Shown in pieces: positions 26,944 to 34,406 of a stretch of 44,270 nt of DNA (position 1 is the first letter of the stretch; every line of letters starts with the position of its first letter). A program made the position numbers and the translations under genes. The stretch covers positions 1-44,270 of the forward strand of contig SVQH01000028.1 in the NCBI GenBank assembly GCA_015065425.1. The letters run 5' to 3'. The notes beneath the pieces are model-generated. The model made no database searches, was not told where the DNA came from, and worked only from the letters and a program-made list of their open reading frames with translations. The DNA is from Oscillospiraceae bacterium. GTDB lineage: Bacteria > Bacillota > Clostridia > Oscillospirales > Acutalibacteraceae.

Positions 26944-28848
26944 TCAGTCGCCTGATTCTTCAGCTTCTTTTATAAGTTCGTCGGGAATTGCTTCGCCGTG
27001 TTTTACGAGGACAATGAGAAGTGCTGCAAGGGCGAACATTATGGGACTGTAATAGAACAGTGACATATATGTTCCGGCAAACATTCTTATAAAACCGTAG
27101 AGGATGGGGGAAGCAATCTGTGCGGAGAAGGTTGCTGTGTAATAGTAACCTGTGAATGTGCCGACCTTTTCAACACCGCCGATTTCAAGAACAAGGGGAA
27201 GTGTGTTTACTGTGATGAACATATTGGCAGCACCGCCGAGAATGAGAACGGGGAAAATAAGTATACCGAGTATCTGAGTAACATTTTCAACACTTCCGTA
27301 AAGCATTTCGAGAGCTGAGCCGAAGGAGACATCTTCCGCAGCACCGAGCTGCTCCTGAGCAACTTTGACTATGGAAGCATACATATCAAGAACGGTATTT
27401 TTGTCTGCACCGTTTGCTACTGCAGTTGCAACAGATTCATCGGAAGCGGCTTTGAGGAATTTATCAAATTCTTCATATTTTGCATCGTTTTCAGAAGTCT
27501 TGCAGTAGTTGATATAACCGTCCATTGTGATAAGCATATCGTCAGTGACTTTTGTACCGTTTTCTTTTGCTGCTGCAGAGATTTCGGCATTATAATCGTT
27601 TAACTGGTCATTTACGGTGATATAAGCATTATTTACGGTTACATAGGAGTTGATTGAAAGTCCCTTGCCGCCGAGCATTGCAATGAACACACCGAAGAAT
27701 ACGACGAATGCTGCGAGGAATACACAAAGACCGCCGAGGATGGTCTTCTTTCTTCCGAACTTTTTGCCAAGCTTACCTGCAGGAATTGCAGCTACACCTG
27801 AAACGACAGCAAAGATAAGCATGAGGAATGTGGCTTCAGATGTGATTTTGTGAAGGATTTCCTGTGCAAAAAGTGAGAAGAATGTTGTGATTGCGTTTGT
27901 ACCGCAGAAGAGGAAGAACAGACATCCGAGCATGAAGATAAGGCTTTTCTTTTCGCCCTTTGAGAGCTTTATGGCTTTTCTTGCTGCCTTCTCAGCCTTC
28001 TTTTCAGCCTTTTCAGCCTGTTTCTTGGCTTTTGCATCAACATAAGAATTTATATCGCCCTTAAGCTTTATGCTTGTGTCCTGCTCCTTGACAAAGAACA
28101 TGAGCACGAGCATACCGATTAACATAATAACGGAGCCTATAGCGAAAACATAGGGGAAGGAGACTGTTTCGTTGTTTTTTATCTCAGTACTGCTCATTCC
28201 TGTGAATATGCCGCAGAGTGCAATGGCTATTGTACCTGCAACCATACCGACTGCGGAACCGACACCGCCCATGAGATTGATTATGGCATTACCTTCACTT
28301 CTGAGAGCAGGGGGGGTGAGGTCAGGCATAAGAGCAACAACGGGGGCTCTCCACAGTGACATGGTGAACACGAAAAGTATAATGCATATCATTGTAAGGG
28401 GGAGAGAGTGGGTTCCAAGGAATACCACGGGAATAAGGAAGAAAAACAGTGCGGAAATGGGAGCACCGATAAGAATGAAGGGACGGCGTTTGCCGAGTTT
28501 TGAATGGCATTCATCGGAAAGTCTTCCGAAGGTGGGCTGGAAGATAACACCGAAGATGTTATCAAAGGTCATAATAAAACCAATAAAAAGAGGAACAAGT
28601 GTGAATCCGCCGCCTGCAAGAGCAACATTTTCACCCTGTGCAGCCGCAAAATCAGCAAGGAAGGGGAATGCTTCAACAAGCTTGTTACTGAGATTTGTAA
28701 TTGCTTCACTTTTTGAGAGAAGTTCATTGAGTATTTTTGTGATATACGGGTCATAAATTGCCCATGCTATAGAGGTTGCAAGGAAACCGAAACCGGTAAG
28801 AACGGTTTTCTTTACATCGAGTTTACCGTTTTTGACATTCATTGACAA
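26944..28848 (-). CDS. Sugar-type MFS/GPH carrier with extra external domain
   Basis: The 634-residue protein starts at TTG, six bases after AAAGGAG; an ATG two codons later is too far from the site. It resembles GPH/SLC45-type sugar carriers: FQPTFGRLSDECHSKLGKRRPF lies after helix 2, and twelve helices can be placed. A Lys/Ala-rich cytoplasmic loop is at about 271-301. Unusually, about 130 residues (394-522) are inserted between helices 9 and 10 on the outer side, rich in Asn, Asp and Ala and predicted helical. Family members of this type have no such domain as far as I know. A sigma-A promoter precedes it. Confidence 0.88.
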   Translation of the reverse strand: MSMNVKNGKLDVKKTVLTGFGFLATSIAWAIYDPYITKILNELLSKSEAITNLSNKLVEAFPFLADFAAAQGENVALAGGGFTLVPLFIGFIMTFDNIFGVIFQPTFGRLSDECHSKLGKRRPFILIGAPISALFFFLIPVVFLGTHSLPLTMICIILFVFTMSLWRAPVVALMPDLTPPALRSEGNAIINLMGGVGSAVGMVAGTIAIALCGIFTGMSSTEIKNNETVSFPYVFAIGSVIMLIGMLVLMFFVKEQDTSIKLKGDINSYVDAKAKKQAEKAEKKAEKAARKAIKLSKGEKKSLIFMLGCLFFLFCGTNAITTFFSLFAQEILHKITSEATFLMLIFAVVSGVAAIPAGKLGKKFGRKKTILGGLCVFLAAFVVFFGVFIAMLGGKGLSINSYVTVNNAYITVNDQLNDYNAEISAAAKENGTKVTDDMLITMDGYINYCKTSENDAKYEEFDKFLKAASDESVATAVANGADKNTVLDMYASIVKVAQEQLGAAEDVSFGSALEMLYGSVENVTQILGILIFPVLILGGAANMFITVNTLPLVLEIGGVEKVGTFTGYYYTATFSAQIASPILYGFIRMFAGTYMSLFYYSPIMFALAALLIVLVKHGEAIPDELIKEAEESGD

Positions 28849-28947: not shown

Positions 28948-31900
28948 TCAGCGTTTAGTCCAGAAATCAAATTCCCCCTCACTTTCAGCTTCTTCTCTCT
29001 TTCTTCTGATGTCGGAAAATGCTTTGTCATCTTCTTTTGTGTCGAAGGAAGAGAAGAAGTCATCATTATATACAGCAGAAGCGGTATCCGTTTCGGGCGG
29101 AATAAATTTAGCCTTCAGCGGATCGTTTTCCGTTTCTTTCTTTTTCTTTGAAAGATCGAATTTAGGAGGATCGGGTATTTTTTCATCAAGGAATGAAAGT
29201 ATGGATTTTTTCTGTGTGCCGTTTGCCTCAGTTTCACTGTTATCTGAAGTACCTTTTCCGATTCTTTCAAAAAGATTTTGTTTTTTGCGGATATTCTGAG
29301 TTCGAGGATGTCTTTCTGAAGCAGATGCGTATGAATCAAGAAGCTCATCGCTTACCGTCTGTTTGGAAGGCCCTTCATCCTCAGTTGTTTCAAGACCTGT
29401 AATTGCATTGAAATCTATAACTTCAGGGGGTTTTGTATAAGGAGCTCCCTGCATTATGAGCTGCTCGGTATTATCTTTGAATTCAATGGGGGAATTGTCT
29501 GAAAAAACCGGAGGAGCAGGGAAAATATTTTCTTCGTTGATTTCTGCGTTTTCTGAAACGGGAGCAGACTGTGTTTTTGTCTGTTCTTTTTTTTCTTTTG
29601 AGGGTGAAGTCTTTCTGACAGGTATTGAAACCTCATAAACTTCATCTTTTTCGGTTATGTCCGTTTCTTTTTCTTCCGGTTCTTCGTATATTTCTCTTTC
29701 CTCTGCTTTTGCCATACCCTTTATTCTCTCACCGAGGTTTTCAGGGAGATGTATTTTTGATTTGAGAGGAATGTTGAGTAAGAGAGGAGTTATTACAAAT
29801 CCGAGAAGAATCCATAAAAGCTGAAGTATCATTACAAGCCAGCCGTTGATACCTGCATTTGCCTTTGCAATAACAAGGATGAGACCGAAGATTCCGCCTG
29901 CAAGAGCACCTGCTTCGCCGATTATTTTTGATATTTTCTTTACTTTGTCAAGCTTTATTGCACTTGCCATAATGCGGCAGAAGGCATCAAATGAATCTGA
30001 GAAAACAAGCCCCGTGTCTTCGGAATCCGTAACGGTATTTTTCTGAGCAGCGAATTTTTCGTTTGCCGATTGTCTGATTATTCTGAGCGAATCATTGGGA
30101 AGAGAGAGGAGATTTTCGGCAAATTCCTCAGTGATGTTGGGTTCATTGATGCTTATCAGTATGTTTGTGCCGTTTTCTGCAAGAGTTGAAAGGCTTCTTG
30201 CTGCAAGAGCGTTGCATGAATATCTCACGGCGAAAACAGCGGCAAAATGTCCTTCTATTGAAAGGAAGAGGGTTCTTTCGTTTTCTTCAAGAATAAAAGG
30301 AGTTAAATTTTCAGGCGGAAGCTCGACATTATGATTTGTAAGATAGTCTCTTGTGCCGAGAAGCACCTTGCAATCACTTATCCAGGCAGATATCCCCATT
30401 TTGTCTTCATATACAAGCCCTTCTACATTGGGGAGCTTCTCTATTGAACTGTCATTAAGTTTGGAGAAAGCCTTTTTAAGTAAGCCTTCTGTTTTATCTG
30501 TAAGTACTGCGGCACAGAATTCAGCCTGTTTTTTTGCAACATTCTTACTGCAGGCAATATTGGTGATTTCGGCATTGAACAGTTCATTTCCGTCAAGAAC
30601 GATATCATCGGCACGGCAGAAATTTCCTGCATCGGAAAAACTGCTGATAAACGAAGATTTTACTGAAAGTGAACTGTTTTCTCCCGAAAGAACATATCCC
30701 GTAAATACAAGGGAGCTTATGGGGAAGGAGAGTGCGGCACATAAGGTAAGACAGCCCATTGCATAAACGAAACTGCCTGAGGTAATAAGACCGATAAGAC
30801 CGGCAATAAGTGATATAGCCATGGATATTGCCACAATCTTGGATGAAGCCTGTGCTGAAAATGCACCCGCGGCACATCTTTTGAGGAAACCTGAAATAAA
30901 ACGGGTCTTTCCCGCATAGATAACATTTGTTTCCGTGTCGGAACGGTCTTTAAGAAGCTGTGCCCTCATGTTGTCGTCAGAAACTTTTCTGAAATAAGAC
31001 TTATCACTGGAGGCTGATACTGCCTTGAAACAATGCCTTGTGCTGTCGGAATAAAAGATTTTTGACAGAAGCACGGGAACGCACAGGAGAATTGCCGCAC
31101 CGGAAAGCATGTGATAGTCACTTTCAGGCTTGAGAAGAGTAAAATATGCTGTGATGTTCTGAATGAGAGCACCTGCATATACAAATAAAAGTGCACTGTC
31201 TGTTTTTGGTCTTATTTTAAGTACGGAGAAGACACCTTTTTTAAGGTCGTCAAACAAAAGAACTCCGCACAATAGCAAGAACATAAGATTTACAGAATTG
31301 TAAACTGTCGGATTGCCGCCGAAAACTTCAAAAAATCCGTTGTGCATTGCAGCAGAAATTGATGTTATGATATTTATAAGAAGAAGTATTACTCCGAGAA
31401 GCCCTACGGCAAAGGTTCTGAATAAGAGATTTTTTCTTATATTTATCAGAGCGGAGAATATTTCTTTTCTTTTTGCAGGGTCAGTATATTCCGTATTTCC
31501 CGTAGGTACAAAGTCTGTGTTGAGATGGCGGAATTTCTTTTCAATATCAGATATGAAAGAGGGAAGCTTTTTATCTTCTCGGGGAGCAGAAAAGCTTTCG
31601 TCCTCGCTCTCGCCCGTGGGAACATTCTGTTTTGACCAGAATCTGAAGTTGTTTATCCTTTTTTCTCTTGCCTGAGTAAGTTCTTTTTCAAGGATGTTTT
31701 CGTCCTCGGAAACTACGGGATTGTCGGCACTCAATTCTTCAAAGCCTTCCATGGTGAGCTGCTGCTCATCCTCTTCGGTGAGAGTCCCCGATGTTTTTGC
31801 TATCTGCCTTAAAAGATTTCCCTTGCTGTTTATGACCTTTGTTTTATCGGAAGTCTCATTTTCGGGAAGCTTTTCAATAATTACCTTGGGTTCGCCTATT

Positions 31901-32457
31901 TCAGGTTCTTTTGTTTCAATGAGAGTGGGTATAATTCTGGTCTGTGCTTCGGCAGTTTTTTCGGGAGTTTGCTTAAGCTTTGTTTTTTCTCTTGCCATCT
32001 GCTTTTCTTCCTCGTTTGCAGGAATGAATTTCGGAGCATCCGCCGATGGGGAGTGATTTGCAGCATAAGTATTGATTTTACCCGTGTAGCCCGTGTGCTT
32101 TTTCTTTTCAGGCTTTTTAAGGGAGAGACGGTCTGTGTATTTTTCAACACTTGTAGGAACATCGGGAACAGTCTCACCTTTCACGGAAATAAACTCGGTG
32201 GTATTTGTTTTAATGAAACGTTCTTCTGTTATGGTATCTGAAAAATCTCCCACTGTCTCGAATGCCTCTGCAGGTGAATTTTCATCAAACATTTTCTGCT
32301 GTTCCTCGTTTACAACAGGAGTGCTGTCGGATTTTTCTGTGTCCGCAGAAGACAGATTGCTGTTAACGGGAATTATATCTTCACGCTGAGAAGCATCATC
32401 GGAACCGGAGTTTTTTATTTTATTGAAATGCTTTAAGAAATTATTATATTCACTCAT
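28948..32457 (-). CDS. Degenerate P1B-type ATPase-like membrane protein with long charged tails
   Basis: The 1169-residue protein starts at the ATG behind AGAAGGAG; the frame is open further but enters rlmB. Residues 1-340 are charged and probably disordered. Helices then come in pairs, at about 345-371/385-403, 420-441/449-469, 541-560/562-590 and 846-866/871-897, the 2+2+2+2 plan of P1B ATPases. Between helices 4 and 5 lies an actuator-sized segment without TGE. Between 6 and 7 is a 250-residue domain in which DKTGTLT is replaced by VLDGNELFNAE (Asp622), TGDN by SINEPN, and GDGxND is absent. GISAWISDCKVLLGTRDYL (from 688) still resembles the N-domain. Residues 898-1169 are another charged tail. 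It is probably a non-pumping relative. Confidence 0.78.
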   Translation of the reverse strand: MSEYNNFLKHFNKIKNSGSDDASQREDIIPVNSNLSSADTEKSDSTPVVNEEQQKMFDENSPAEAFETVGDFSDTITEERFIKTNTTEFISVKGETVPDVPTSVEKYTDRLSLKKPEKKKHTGYTGKINTYAANHSPSADAPKFIPANEEEKQMAREKTKLKQTPEKTAEAQTRIIPTLIETKEPEIGEPKVIIEKLPENETSDKTKVINSKGNLLRQIAKTSGTLTEEDEQQLTMEGFEELSADNPVVSEDENILEKELTQAREKRINNFRFWSKQNVPTGESEDESFSAPREDKKLPSFISDIEKKFRHLNTDFVPTGNTEYTDPAKRKEIFSALINIRKNLLFRTFAVGLLGVILLLINIITSISAAMHNGFFEVFGGNPTVYNSVNLMFLLLCGVLLFDDLKKGVFSVLKIRPKTDSALLFVYAGALIQNITAYFTLLKPESDYHMLSGAAILLCVPVLLSKIFYSDSTRHCFKAVSASSDKSYFRKVSDDNMRAQLLKDRSDTETNVIYAGKTRFISGFLKRCAAGAFSAQASSKIVAISMAISLIAGLIGLITSGSFVYAMGCLTLCAALSFPISSLVFTGYVLSGENSSLSVKSSFISSFSDAGNFCRADDIVLDGNELFNAEITNIACSKNVAKKQAEFCAAVLTDKTEGLLKKAFSKLNDSSIEKLPNVEGLVYEDKMGISAWISDCKVLLGTRDYLTNHNVELPPENLTPFILEENERTLFLSIEGHFAAVFAVRYSCNALAARSLSTLAENGTNILISINEPNITEEFAENLLSLPNDSLRIIRQSANEKFAAQKNTVTDSEDTGLVFSDSFDAFCRIMASAIKLDKVKKISKIIGEAGALAGGIFGLILVIAKANAGINGWLVMILQLLWILLGFVITPLLLNIPLKSKIHLPENLGERIKGMAKAEEREIYEEPEEKETDITEKDEVYEVSIPVRKTSPSKEKKEQTKTQSAPVSENAEINEENIFPAPPVFSDNSPIEFKDNTEQLIMQGAPYTKPPEVIDFNAITGLETTEDEGPSKQTVSDELLDSYASASERHPRTQNIRKKQNLFERIGKGTSDNSETEANGTQKKSILSFLDEKIPDPPKFDLSKKKKETENDPLKAKFIPPETDTASAVYNDDFFSSFDTKEDDKAFSDIRRKREEAESEGEFDFWTKR

Positions 32458-32482
32458 ATATTCTCCTTCTTTCCCGTTATTT

Positions 32483-33349
32483 TCAGTTTCTTGTATGTGC
32501 GGCTTCAAAAATGAGTATGGCAGCTGCGACGGATGCATTGAGAGAATTGACATTTCCTCTCATGGGAATGGAGAGAACACCGTCACAGTTTTCTTTTACA
32601 AGCCTTGAAACTCCTGCACCTTCTCCGCCTACCACAAGTGCTATGGCACCCGAGAGGTCAGCCTTCCTGTAGGGTGTGCCGTCCATATCGGCACAGTATA
32701 CCCAAAGTCCTTTTTCTTTAAGAAGCTTTATTACGGATGTTATGTTTTTTACCCTTGCAACGGGCACATATTCAAGTGCTCCCGCAGATGTTTTTCCTAC
32801 TATCCCGGAGAGACTTACGCTTCTTCTTTCAGGAATTATGACACCGTGTGCCCCTGCGGCATCGGCTGTCCTTATTATTGCACCGAGATTGTGAGGGTCT
32901 TCAAGAGAGTCGCATATAATGATGAAGGGAGCCTCTCCTTTTTCCTCTGCTTTTTTCAGAATATTTTCAACGGTGGAGTATTCATGTGCCGCCGCAATCA
33001 TAATAACACCCTGATGGTGTGCATGCCCGCACATAAAATCAAGCTTTTTACTGTCGACTTCTTTTACAATGATGCCTTTTTCCTTGCATTCTGCAATAAT
33101 GGGACGGATACTGCCTGAAAGCTCTCCTCTTTGTATAAGAAGAGAATCAGCAGGTCTTCCTGCCTTCAGGGCTTCTTTTACGGCATTCCTTCCTATTATA
33201 AGGTTTGTTCTCGGTTCATTCTGCCTGTCAGATCTGTTTTCACTGTCATTTTCCCGGTCATTGCGTCTGTTGTATTTGTCGGAGGCCTCTCTTTTTCCTC
33301 CGATTTCCCTGTCGTTTTTTCTGTCTTTGCTGAATTTATCGTAAGCCAT
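32483..33349 (-). CDS. rlmB: 23S rRNA (guanosine-2'-O)-methyltransferase RlmB-type (TrmH family)
   Basis: The 288-residue SPOUT methyltransferase probably modifies the conserved guanosine of the 23S rRNA peptidyl-transferase loop. The ATG at 33349 is my choice; a GTG two codons earlier is possible, and no strong ribosome site is visible for either. Residues about 1-48 are an extremely charged, Arg/Asp/Asn-rich extension. The substrate-binding domain begins at LIIGRNAVKEAL. The knot motifs are DPHNLGAIIRTADAAG, VVGGEGAGVSRL and SIPMRGNVNSLNASVAAAI. It heads an operon with the pseudo-ATPase gene 25 bases downstream. Confidence 0.93.
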   Translation of the reverse strand: MAYDKFSKDRKNDREIGGKREASDKYNRRNDRENDSENRSDRQNEPRTNLIIGRNAVKEALKAGRPADSLLIQRGELSGSIRPIIAECKEKGIIVKEVDSKKLDFMCGHAHHQGVIMIAAAHEYSTVENILKKAEEKGEAPFIIICDSLEDPHNLGAIIRTADAAGAHGVIIPERRSVSLSGIVGKTSAGALEYVPVARVKNITSVIKLLKEKGLWVYCADMDGTPYRKADLSGAIALVVGGEGAGVSRLVKENCDGVLSIPMRGNVNSLNASVAAAILIFEAAHTRN

Positions 33350-33385
33350 AAGCACTCAACTCTCAAATATAATTATACAGAATAC

Positions 33386-33533: not shown

Positions 33534-34406
33534 TTATTGATATTTTGATGTAATACCGTAATATTCCTCGAGACACAGACCGCTTTCATATATTTTTGTT
33601 GCCTTTTCCACTCCCACATATCTCAGGTGCCACGGTTCGTAGCTGTACCCTGTGATGTGTTCTTTGCCTTTTGGATATCTTATTATAAATCCGAATTCAT
33701 GGCAGTGAGAAGCTACCCATTTACCTTCAGCGGTGTTTCCGAATGCCTGTGTGATGGTGTTGAGGTCTATTGCAAGTCCCGTCTGATGTTCGGAGTGTCC
33801 GGGACGGGCTGAATATGTATCAGCAAGACTTCTTCCGTCCTGTCGTACATAACGATTATAAATACTGTCCTGAGAAGAATAGGAACGGTAGCCTGAGCTT
33901 ATATAAATGGAAAGACCTTTTGAAAATGCAGCATTCTGCATTTCTCTGAATGCGGCTTTACAATCGGGAAGAATGTCACCCGGGTCATAAGCAGAAGGAA
34001 GAGAATAAGTTTTGTTTGCAATTATTATACCGTCAACATAAGTTATGCCGTTTTTTTCATATATTGGGTAATTTTTTTCGGTGAGACCGAGAAAGTCGGC
34101 ATCGGTACCTCTTCTGAATACTGTAGCCTCCTCATAAAGGCCTATTGAAAGCCTGAGACTGATTCTTGCATCCGCTGCAGTGATATCACCGTCTGAATTG
34201 AGGTCTGCAAGTATGAGCATTTCATCTGTTATCTCCTCAATCCCCACACTCATGCGAAGAATTGAGCGGGAATCATTGGCAGAAAGAATACTGTCGCCGT
34301 CAACATCACCGAAAACCGTGGCGGAAACGGAAAAAACAGGTGCGGCAAAAGAGCACAGAACAAGAAAAACAGATAAAAATAATTTGATTTTTGCAGGTCT
34401 TTTCAC
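33534..34406 (-). CDS. Dockerin-tagged VanY-type D-alanyl-D-alanine carboxypeptidase
   Basis: The 290-residue secreted protein has a GTG start behind GGGGGCGG. A signal peptide (IKLFLSVFLVLCSFAAPVFS) precedes a type I dockerin at residues about 32-92 with two calcium loops, GDVDGDSILSANDSRSILRM and ADLNSDGDITAADARISLRL. The C-terminal VanY/LAS metallopeptidase has SSGYRSYSSQ, the zinc-site SARPGHSEHQTGLAIDL, and EPWHLRYVG with the last His. It trims peptidoglycan stem peptides. Dockerins normally bind cohesins on a scaffold; no cohesin is seen in this window. A dockerin on a cell-wall peptidase is less common than on glycosidases. Confidence 0.93.
   Translation of the reverse strand: MKRPAKIKLFLSVFLVLCSFAAPVFSVSATVFGDVDGDSILSANDSRSILRMSVGIEEITDEMLILADLNSDGDITAADARISLRLSIGLYEEATVFRRGTDADFLGLTEKNYPIYEKNGITYVDGIIIANKTYSLPSAYDPGDILPDCKAAFREMQNAAFSKGLSIYISSGYRSYSSQDSIYNRYVRQDGRSLADTYSARPGHSEHQTGLAIDLNTITQAFGNTAEGKWVASHCHEFGFIIRYPKGKEHITGYSYEPWHLRYVGVEKATKIYESGLCLEEYYGITSKYQ

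Follow-up and report, generated by a model that had tools for sequence, protein, structure and literature searches.

A P1B-ATPase-derived protein family without catalytic motifs, encoded behind rlmB in a gut-bacterial order

Results

A pseudo-ATPase gene directly behind rlmB

We analysed a 44,270-nucleotide stretch of DNA from an Oscillospiraceae bacterium (contig SVQH01000028.1, assembly GCA_015065425.1; hereafter the window) and focused on a minus-strand gene at 28948..32457 that encodes a protein of 1169 residues. Its open reading frame (ORF), profile matches, a structural model and structure matches identify the product as a P1B-derived pseudo-ATPase, the sole match of its kind in its own genome. 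The ATG at 32457 is closely preceded by a strong Shine-Dalgarno sequence, AAGGAGAA (mapped to 32461..32470, minus strand, as AGAAGGAGAA); an alternative in-frame ATG at 32553, overlapping the upstream gene, is a less likely start codon. That upstream gene, 25 nt away on the same strand (32483..33355), is rlmB, for the 23S rRNA G2251 2'-O-methyltransferase (TIGR00186, 241.6 bits, above the cut-off of 160.15). An initial annotation, made from the sequence alone, had placed both genes in one operon, and the arrangement proved general: a same-strand rlmB lies directly upstream in 112 of the 113 distinct loci having enough upstream DNA (five loci with shorter upstream DNA were left out). The lone exception, L031, is a copy split into two frames, and its first half also lies behind rlmB.

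Descent from copper P1B-ATPases

Family members came from two sources. A protein search of 59 genomes (the own genome and relatives) gave matches in 54, and 54 family proteins, the window's included, were taken from these loci. From a species-genome collection, the best 80 of 395 relatives were used as loci, mostly metagenome-assembled genomes labelled Ruminococcaceae, Oscillospiraceae, Clostridiales or Clostridia bacterium; all 80 contained a family ORF. After removal of duplicates, 117 distinct proteins were aligned, and motif and column counts below refer to these unless stated otherwise.

A Pfam scan of the window protein returned no match and NCBIfam none above its cut-off, CopA (PRK10671.1) being reached below threshold (E = 7.5e-6; score 24.4 bits, cut-off 1316). 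Among 73 core relatives, Pfam matched E1-E2_ATPase in six (best E = 0.0012), Hydrolase in three, mCpol in two and SPC12 in one. The single window sequence gave nothing below E = 0.078 in a phmmer search of the PDB, so a family profile was needed to show homology to solved structures: built from alignment A2, it matched the P1B pumps CopA (3rfu, E = 3.6e-29) and HMA4 (E = 9.4e-14). Structure prediction and a fold search, the route by which the initial annotation had proposed to examine the protein, gave a core model with a pLDDT of 92 in which the P1B membrane, P and N domains are present; its nearest structures are ATP7B and CopA.

Hydropathy bore out the eight helices in four pairs that had been seen in the sequence. 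These are 349-367/384-402 and 423-441/450-468 (helices 1-4, residues 349-468, 31054..31413; all protein features are on the minus strand), 541-559/567-585 (helices 5-6, residues 541-585, 30703..30837) and 845-863/874-892 (helices 7-8, residues 845-892, 29782..29925); the first four and last two helices are also seen in the model, and helices 5-6 in the alignment and motif counts. The cytoplasmic domain expected between pairs 3 and 4 is indeed there, as loop 586-844, which forms the P and N region: a first part of the P domain (591-628, 30574..30687; profile, alignment and motif count), the N domain (629-745, 30223..30573; alignment and structure match) and a second part of the P domain (746-842, 29932..30222; profile and alignment). 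In the profile alignment, VLDGNEL (620-626, with D622) lies opposite the phosphorylated Asp of CopA, SFPI opposite its CPC motif, and GISAWISDCKVLLGT, previously described as N-domain-like, opposite the CopA N-domain stretch with the GxG loop and GN motif, in agreement with that description. In CopA, the GxG loop belongs to the ATP pocket. In a tree rooted on a pump, 29 members formed one clade against 12 intact pumps (support 0.8). Two intact P1B pumps (L240, L241) are also encoded in the own genome. The descent of the core from copper P1B-ATPases is well supported, and so is the earlier idea of a former pump, by the P1B fold together with the family-wide motif losses described next.

Catalytic and metal motifs are lost throughout the family

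The motifs concerned have established functions in phosphorylation, dephosphorylation, and magnesium and metal binding. DKTG, TGES/P and GDGxND are each absent from the core of all 117 members, the window protein carrying VLDGNEL where DKTGTLT would stand, just as first noted. In helix 6, the metal site [CST]P[CH] (CPC, CPH or SPC) is found in 0 of 117; such a tripeptide occurs elsewhere in the core of one member. At column 658, the place of the SEHP histidine, no member has His and 81 have Gly, with His one column earlier in two. The TGD place reads SINEPN in the window; D772 is kept in 114 members and N774 in 106, and Gly does not rank with the five most frequent residues at 771. Residue 772 of the window protein itself (30142-30144) is Glu. 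Family members in 14 further genomes showed the same lack of DKTG, TGES/P and GDGxND, so the losses that the initial annotation saw in one sequence hold wherever relatives were examined. All four motif types being absent, phosphorylation, dephosphorylation, magnesium binding and metal binding were lost together. A review of P-type ATPases names, in the portions consulted, DKTGT, the A-domain Glu and the helix-4 prolines as functional (PMC10654040). Lacking a phosphorylation site, an A-domain motif and a metal site, the protein can practically be excluded from ATP-driven transport as it is known.

Domain lengths changed too. The segment between helix pairs 2 and 3 (469-540) had been called actuator-sized, which it is not, having 72 residues against 133 and 136 in L228 and L230, the two intact pumps of the order with all four preceding helices detected. 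The actuator (A) domain is largely deleted, about half being left as a remnant without TGE (470-540, 30838..31050; profile, model, hydropathy and motif count). The P1B plan first proposed thus stands for the helices and the P and N folds, and was over-read for the A domain. Residue 772 and helix 7 are 73 residues apart; in pumps, the distance between TGD and the YN of helix 7 is 109 (nine of 12, those where both marks could be found).

Single positions were retained unevenly. The transmembrane CAALSFP had been linked to the metal site; SFPI does align with CPC, and Pro579, which stands as x-P-x in place of CPC, is Pro in 110 members, but Cys573 is Cys in only 19. At the D622 position 83 members have Asp; just beyond it, D/E625 is kept in 109 and F627 in 105. 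The protein descends from the P1B lineage, yet judged by the features that define a functional P1B member it is not one.

The family spans one order and is under purifying selection

In a family search of the profile type that had been proposed, 277 of the order's 295 genomes examined reached E 1e-25 or lower, most with a single match; among the 226 high-quality genomes the number was 220. When 16 weak matches were rechecked, 14 were family members lacking DKTG, GDGxND and TGES/P, and two were intact pumps (G353 and G468, both less than 90% complete); 275 of 295 is thus an upper bound for presence of the family, weak matches beyond these 16 being counted by score. In G348, one of the six high-quality genomes without a match, the contig ends just inside an apparent gene, again behind rlmB. 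A survey of 291 genomes of the class found full-length matches in all 12 members of the order; in other orders, among the matches listed (E 1e-10 or better), only positions of about 211-507 were covered, as in intact pumps, a comparison of extent and not of motifs. This is a monophyletic, copper P1B-derived family present in nearly all genomes of one order, which we infer to be the Oscillospirales, and the gene is probably a core gene there. For a handful of matches a single stop is reported within the matched region; in L009 this stop is where the frame itself ends. Among 37 close pairs, some involving one contig seen twice, the 25 with the greatest similarity had a dN/dS of 0.017-0.172; the family is under strong purifying selection.

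Where does the constraint fall? Twenty-one core columns have one residue at a frequency of at least 0.8: 14 lie in the N domain, the most conserved part, and four in the second P half, while the A remnant, helix 6 and the first P segment contribute one each. No member deviates at G688 or G701, and the other conserved positions include Y683 (97 of 117), E684 (101), S690 (104), W692 (96) and H709 (99). This N-domain patch spans the stretch aligned with the GxG loop of the ATP pocket in CopA. Of the folded parts, the helices show the lowest conservation. The pattern of conserved columns, in the N-domain patch and at P-domain positions, indicates that constraint has shifted from catalysis and the ion path to a new cytosolic surface.

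Charged tails with conserved motifs

The initial annotation put the two charged tails at about 340 and 270 residues, which is close: the N-terminal tail (residues 1-329, 31471..32457) has about 325-345 and the C-terminal tail (906-1169, 28951..29742, by tail analysis) 264. An N-terminal tail of at least 60 residues is present in 112 of 117 members. A C-terminal tail of more than 30 residues is, among the 117, confined to the window's genus; other genera of its family also include longer frames, which lie outside this count. The tails are acidic, with conserved motifs, and almost devoid of Cys (0.1%).

The N-terminal tail contains conserved islands that form the motif QxxxxGF...E......L...R......F (residues 233-271, 31645..31761): Q233, G238, F239, E253, L260, R264 and F271 are kept in 91-96 of 117 members (G238 95, F239 92, L260 96, R264 94, F271 96), in an alignment that is loose outside the window's own family. 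A strict regular expression of this juxtamembrane motif matched 38 of 117 tails, and three of the 28 tails of loci L027-L054, far below the column counts. The shorter pattern Q[LIM]...GF occurred in 66 of 112 tails (shuffle maximum 1). Other lineages have motifs of the type [FYW][ST][LVIM][DESN][DE][ILM] in 32 of 112 tails (shuffle mean 0.1, maximum 1) and WS..DI..LL in 24 (shuffles 0); none of the 25 tails of the window's genus has either. One further pattern was present in eight of 112 tails, as was another (shuffle maxima of 1 and 3). When the 59 genomes were scanned with a degenerate DNA pattern for xDDIxxE[FY], 24 of them yielded 35 matches in all, compared with four matches to the reversed pattern. 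As a docking motif common to other proteins this candidate was rejected: among 30 pattern loci, about 11 resembled the family itself and the rest looked unrelated by eye, providing no evidence for other proteins with the motif.

Discussion

Probable reuse of a former pump

We think it likely, though well short of certain, that a former pump now serves, with no catalysis of its own, as a membrane scaffold or sensor that is expressed together with RlmB. This pseudo-pump would function with no transport driven by ATP. Its N domain, remodelled around what was once the nucleotide pocket, would bind a ligand or a partner protein, the P1B membrane frame would serve as anchor, and the long charged tails may recruit cytosolic partners via conserved short motifs, QxxxxGF...L...R......F in the lineage of the window and [FW]S[LIM][DE][DE]I in certain other families. 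The scaffold or sensor role suggested at the outset fits the retention and purifying selection seen here, and is otherwise something we infer. More tentatively, the protein could be a membrane signalling hub, with the N domain as receptor of a new ligand or partner and the tails as docking platforms, wired to 23S rRNA methylation through the rlmB operon as an order-wide core function.

Several points weigh against reuse as a scaffold or sensor. Five high-quality genomes (G380, G405, G418, G447 and G589) seem to be without the gene. In lineage f10, frames are about 545-600 residues long and the tails nearly absent, which means that a tail-based scaffold would explain the function only in part. 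The retention of D622 and D772 may mean that some P-domain chemistry remains, and the rlmB link may reflect a shared promoter only. The core model was folded from the family's own alignment and is ligand-free.

Alternative explanations

The protein might instead anchor RNA or ribosome work to the membrane in concert with RlmB, its tails resembling a disordered degradosome scaffold, which we regard as unlikely but worth weighing. The near-constant position behind rlmB and the acidic, motif-bearing tails speak for it, and a gene cluster with EF-G as its one annotated member lies downstream in five of 33 neighbourhoods. Synteny by itself, however, denotes co-expression and not interaction, nearly tail-less members exist, and Pfam finds no RNA-binding domain in the window protein.

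With about as little probability, family members could regulate the intact P1B pumps of their genome, for example by joining them in a hetero-complex or by sensing metal status. Its P1B frame, its N and P domains and the intact pumps in the own genome agree with such a role; yet none of the 117 members retains the CPC-type site, constraint on the folded parts is lowest in the helices, and the 62 loci read contain no frame of at least 150 residues with DKTGT.

It is improbable that the P1B membrane domain forms the basis of a passive channel or transporter that works independently of ATP. Such a reading would account for the eight helices and the helix-breaking Pro579, but only one of the 21 most conserved columns is in a helix, and constraint is strongest in the cytosolic N domain.

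We give still less credence to an enzyme with unusual chemistry, for example phosphatase-like, at D622, D/E625 and D772-x-N774. These acidic residues are indeed largely kept, but DKTG, GDGxND and TGES/P are absent, 34 members lack D622, and the window protein itself has E772.

A sporulation protein is a remoter prospect still. Spo0A is present in 132 of 147 genomes of the order, and a SpoIID/LytB gene comes after one member; nevertheless, all nine high-quality genomes without Spo0A match the family (one, G399, was also motif-checked), which rules out a role in sporulation only, and G380, G405, G418 and G447 have Spo0A but seem to lack the family gene.

Finally, a decaying pump copy heading for loss can practically be set aside: the loss of all catalytic motifs, the split L031 copy and the few matches with a reported internal stop are outweighed by order-wide retention, low dN/dS and new family-specific invariant residues, and a decayed single copy, the outcome that would have undone the first reading, is ruled out by that retention, the motif pattern and the low dN/dS.

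Comparison with known systems

The former pump shares with CopA and ATP7B (PDB 3rfu and 7si7; AfCopA domains) the eight-helix plan with two extra N-terminal helices, the P and N folds and the helix-breaking Pro in the sixth helix, and these are its best profile and structure matches. In contrast to them, it lacks DKTGT, TGE, GDGxND, the CPC-type site and the SEHP His, has an A domain cut to about half and a P domain some 35 residues shorter before helix 7, and carries long charged tails and a new conserved N-domain surface. The order's intact P1B pumps (L224-L232), like L240 and L241 of the own genome, have the same fold plan and P/N region and co-occur with the family, but keep all catalytic motifs; they match the family profile piecewise, best at about 215-498 and more weakly at the first helices, none full-length among the matches listed. 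Long-tailed eukaryotic ATP7A/B and HMA proteins also bear long termini on a P1B frame, whereas they are active pumps with metal-sensing termini, unlike the Cys-poor tails and motif-less core found here.

Pseudoenzymes are a familiar feature of kinases, proteases and other groups. In the literature searched, which included few subscription papers and no bioRxiv, we found no description of an order-wide, syntenic, motif-less P-type ATPase family. The portions consulted of a 2023 P-type ATPase review do not mention a motif-less prokaryotic family; they discuss eukaryotic long-tailed P1B-ATPases as possible transceptors, describe prokaryotic sequences as lacking such terminal domains and ask when such functions arose (PMC10654040). 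With the present family one could test directly whether a P-type frame can be put to use in the absence of pumping, a matter close to that transceptor question as posed there (PMC10654040), and it is a probable core gene of a gut-bacterial order whose product, in the window, has no Pfam match or above-cut-off NCBIfam match.

A second motif-less P-type protein was seen in five genomes of order-family f19, within about 3 kb of the rlmB/pseudo-ATPase pair (L051:7551-9761 on the minus strand, directly upstream of rlmB; also L168, L169, L170, L171 and L174). It has 736-822 residues, its P site reads IYFDASEL, LFFDAGEL, IYYSTKEL, YDKGSEI or FDKSSEI, and TGE and GDGxND are absent; the motif check covers the five genomes, and 36 other genomes matched. 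This protein resembles the family in lacking DKTGT, TGE and GDGxND beside the same gene pair, but matches the family profile weakly (28 bits), and on reading by eye may be P2-like.

Neighbouring genes

Downstream genes vary among families and include those for EF-G, acetolactate synthase, an ABC ATPase, MetG, Lon, SpoIID/LytB, GMP synthase and a nitroreductase; two sets of 10 downstream proteins, with two proteins common to both, gave no functional lead. In one genome a SpoIID/LytB-domain protein (L041:6841-8523, plus strand) comes immediately after the pseudo-ATPase. In the window, the next gene upstream of rlmB (33534-34406, minus strand) encodes a peptidoglycan carboxypeptidase of the VanY/LdcB type, to which Dockerin_1 matched weakly (E = 2.8e-4, slightly short of the cut-off). 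The next gene downstream of the pseudo-ATPase (26944-28848, minus strand) encodes a GPH/MFS sugar transporter with an apparent inter-helix insertion of roughly 130-150 residues, as judged by eye.

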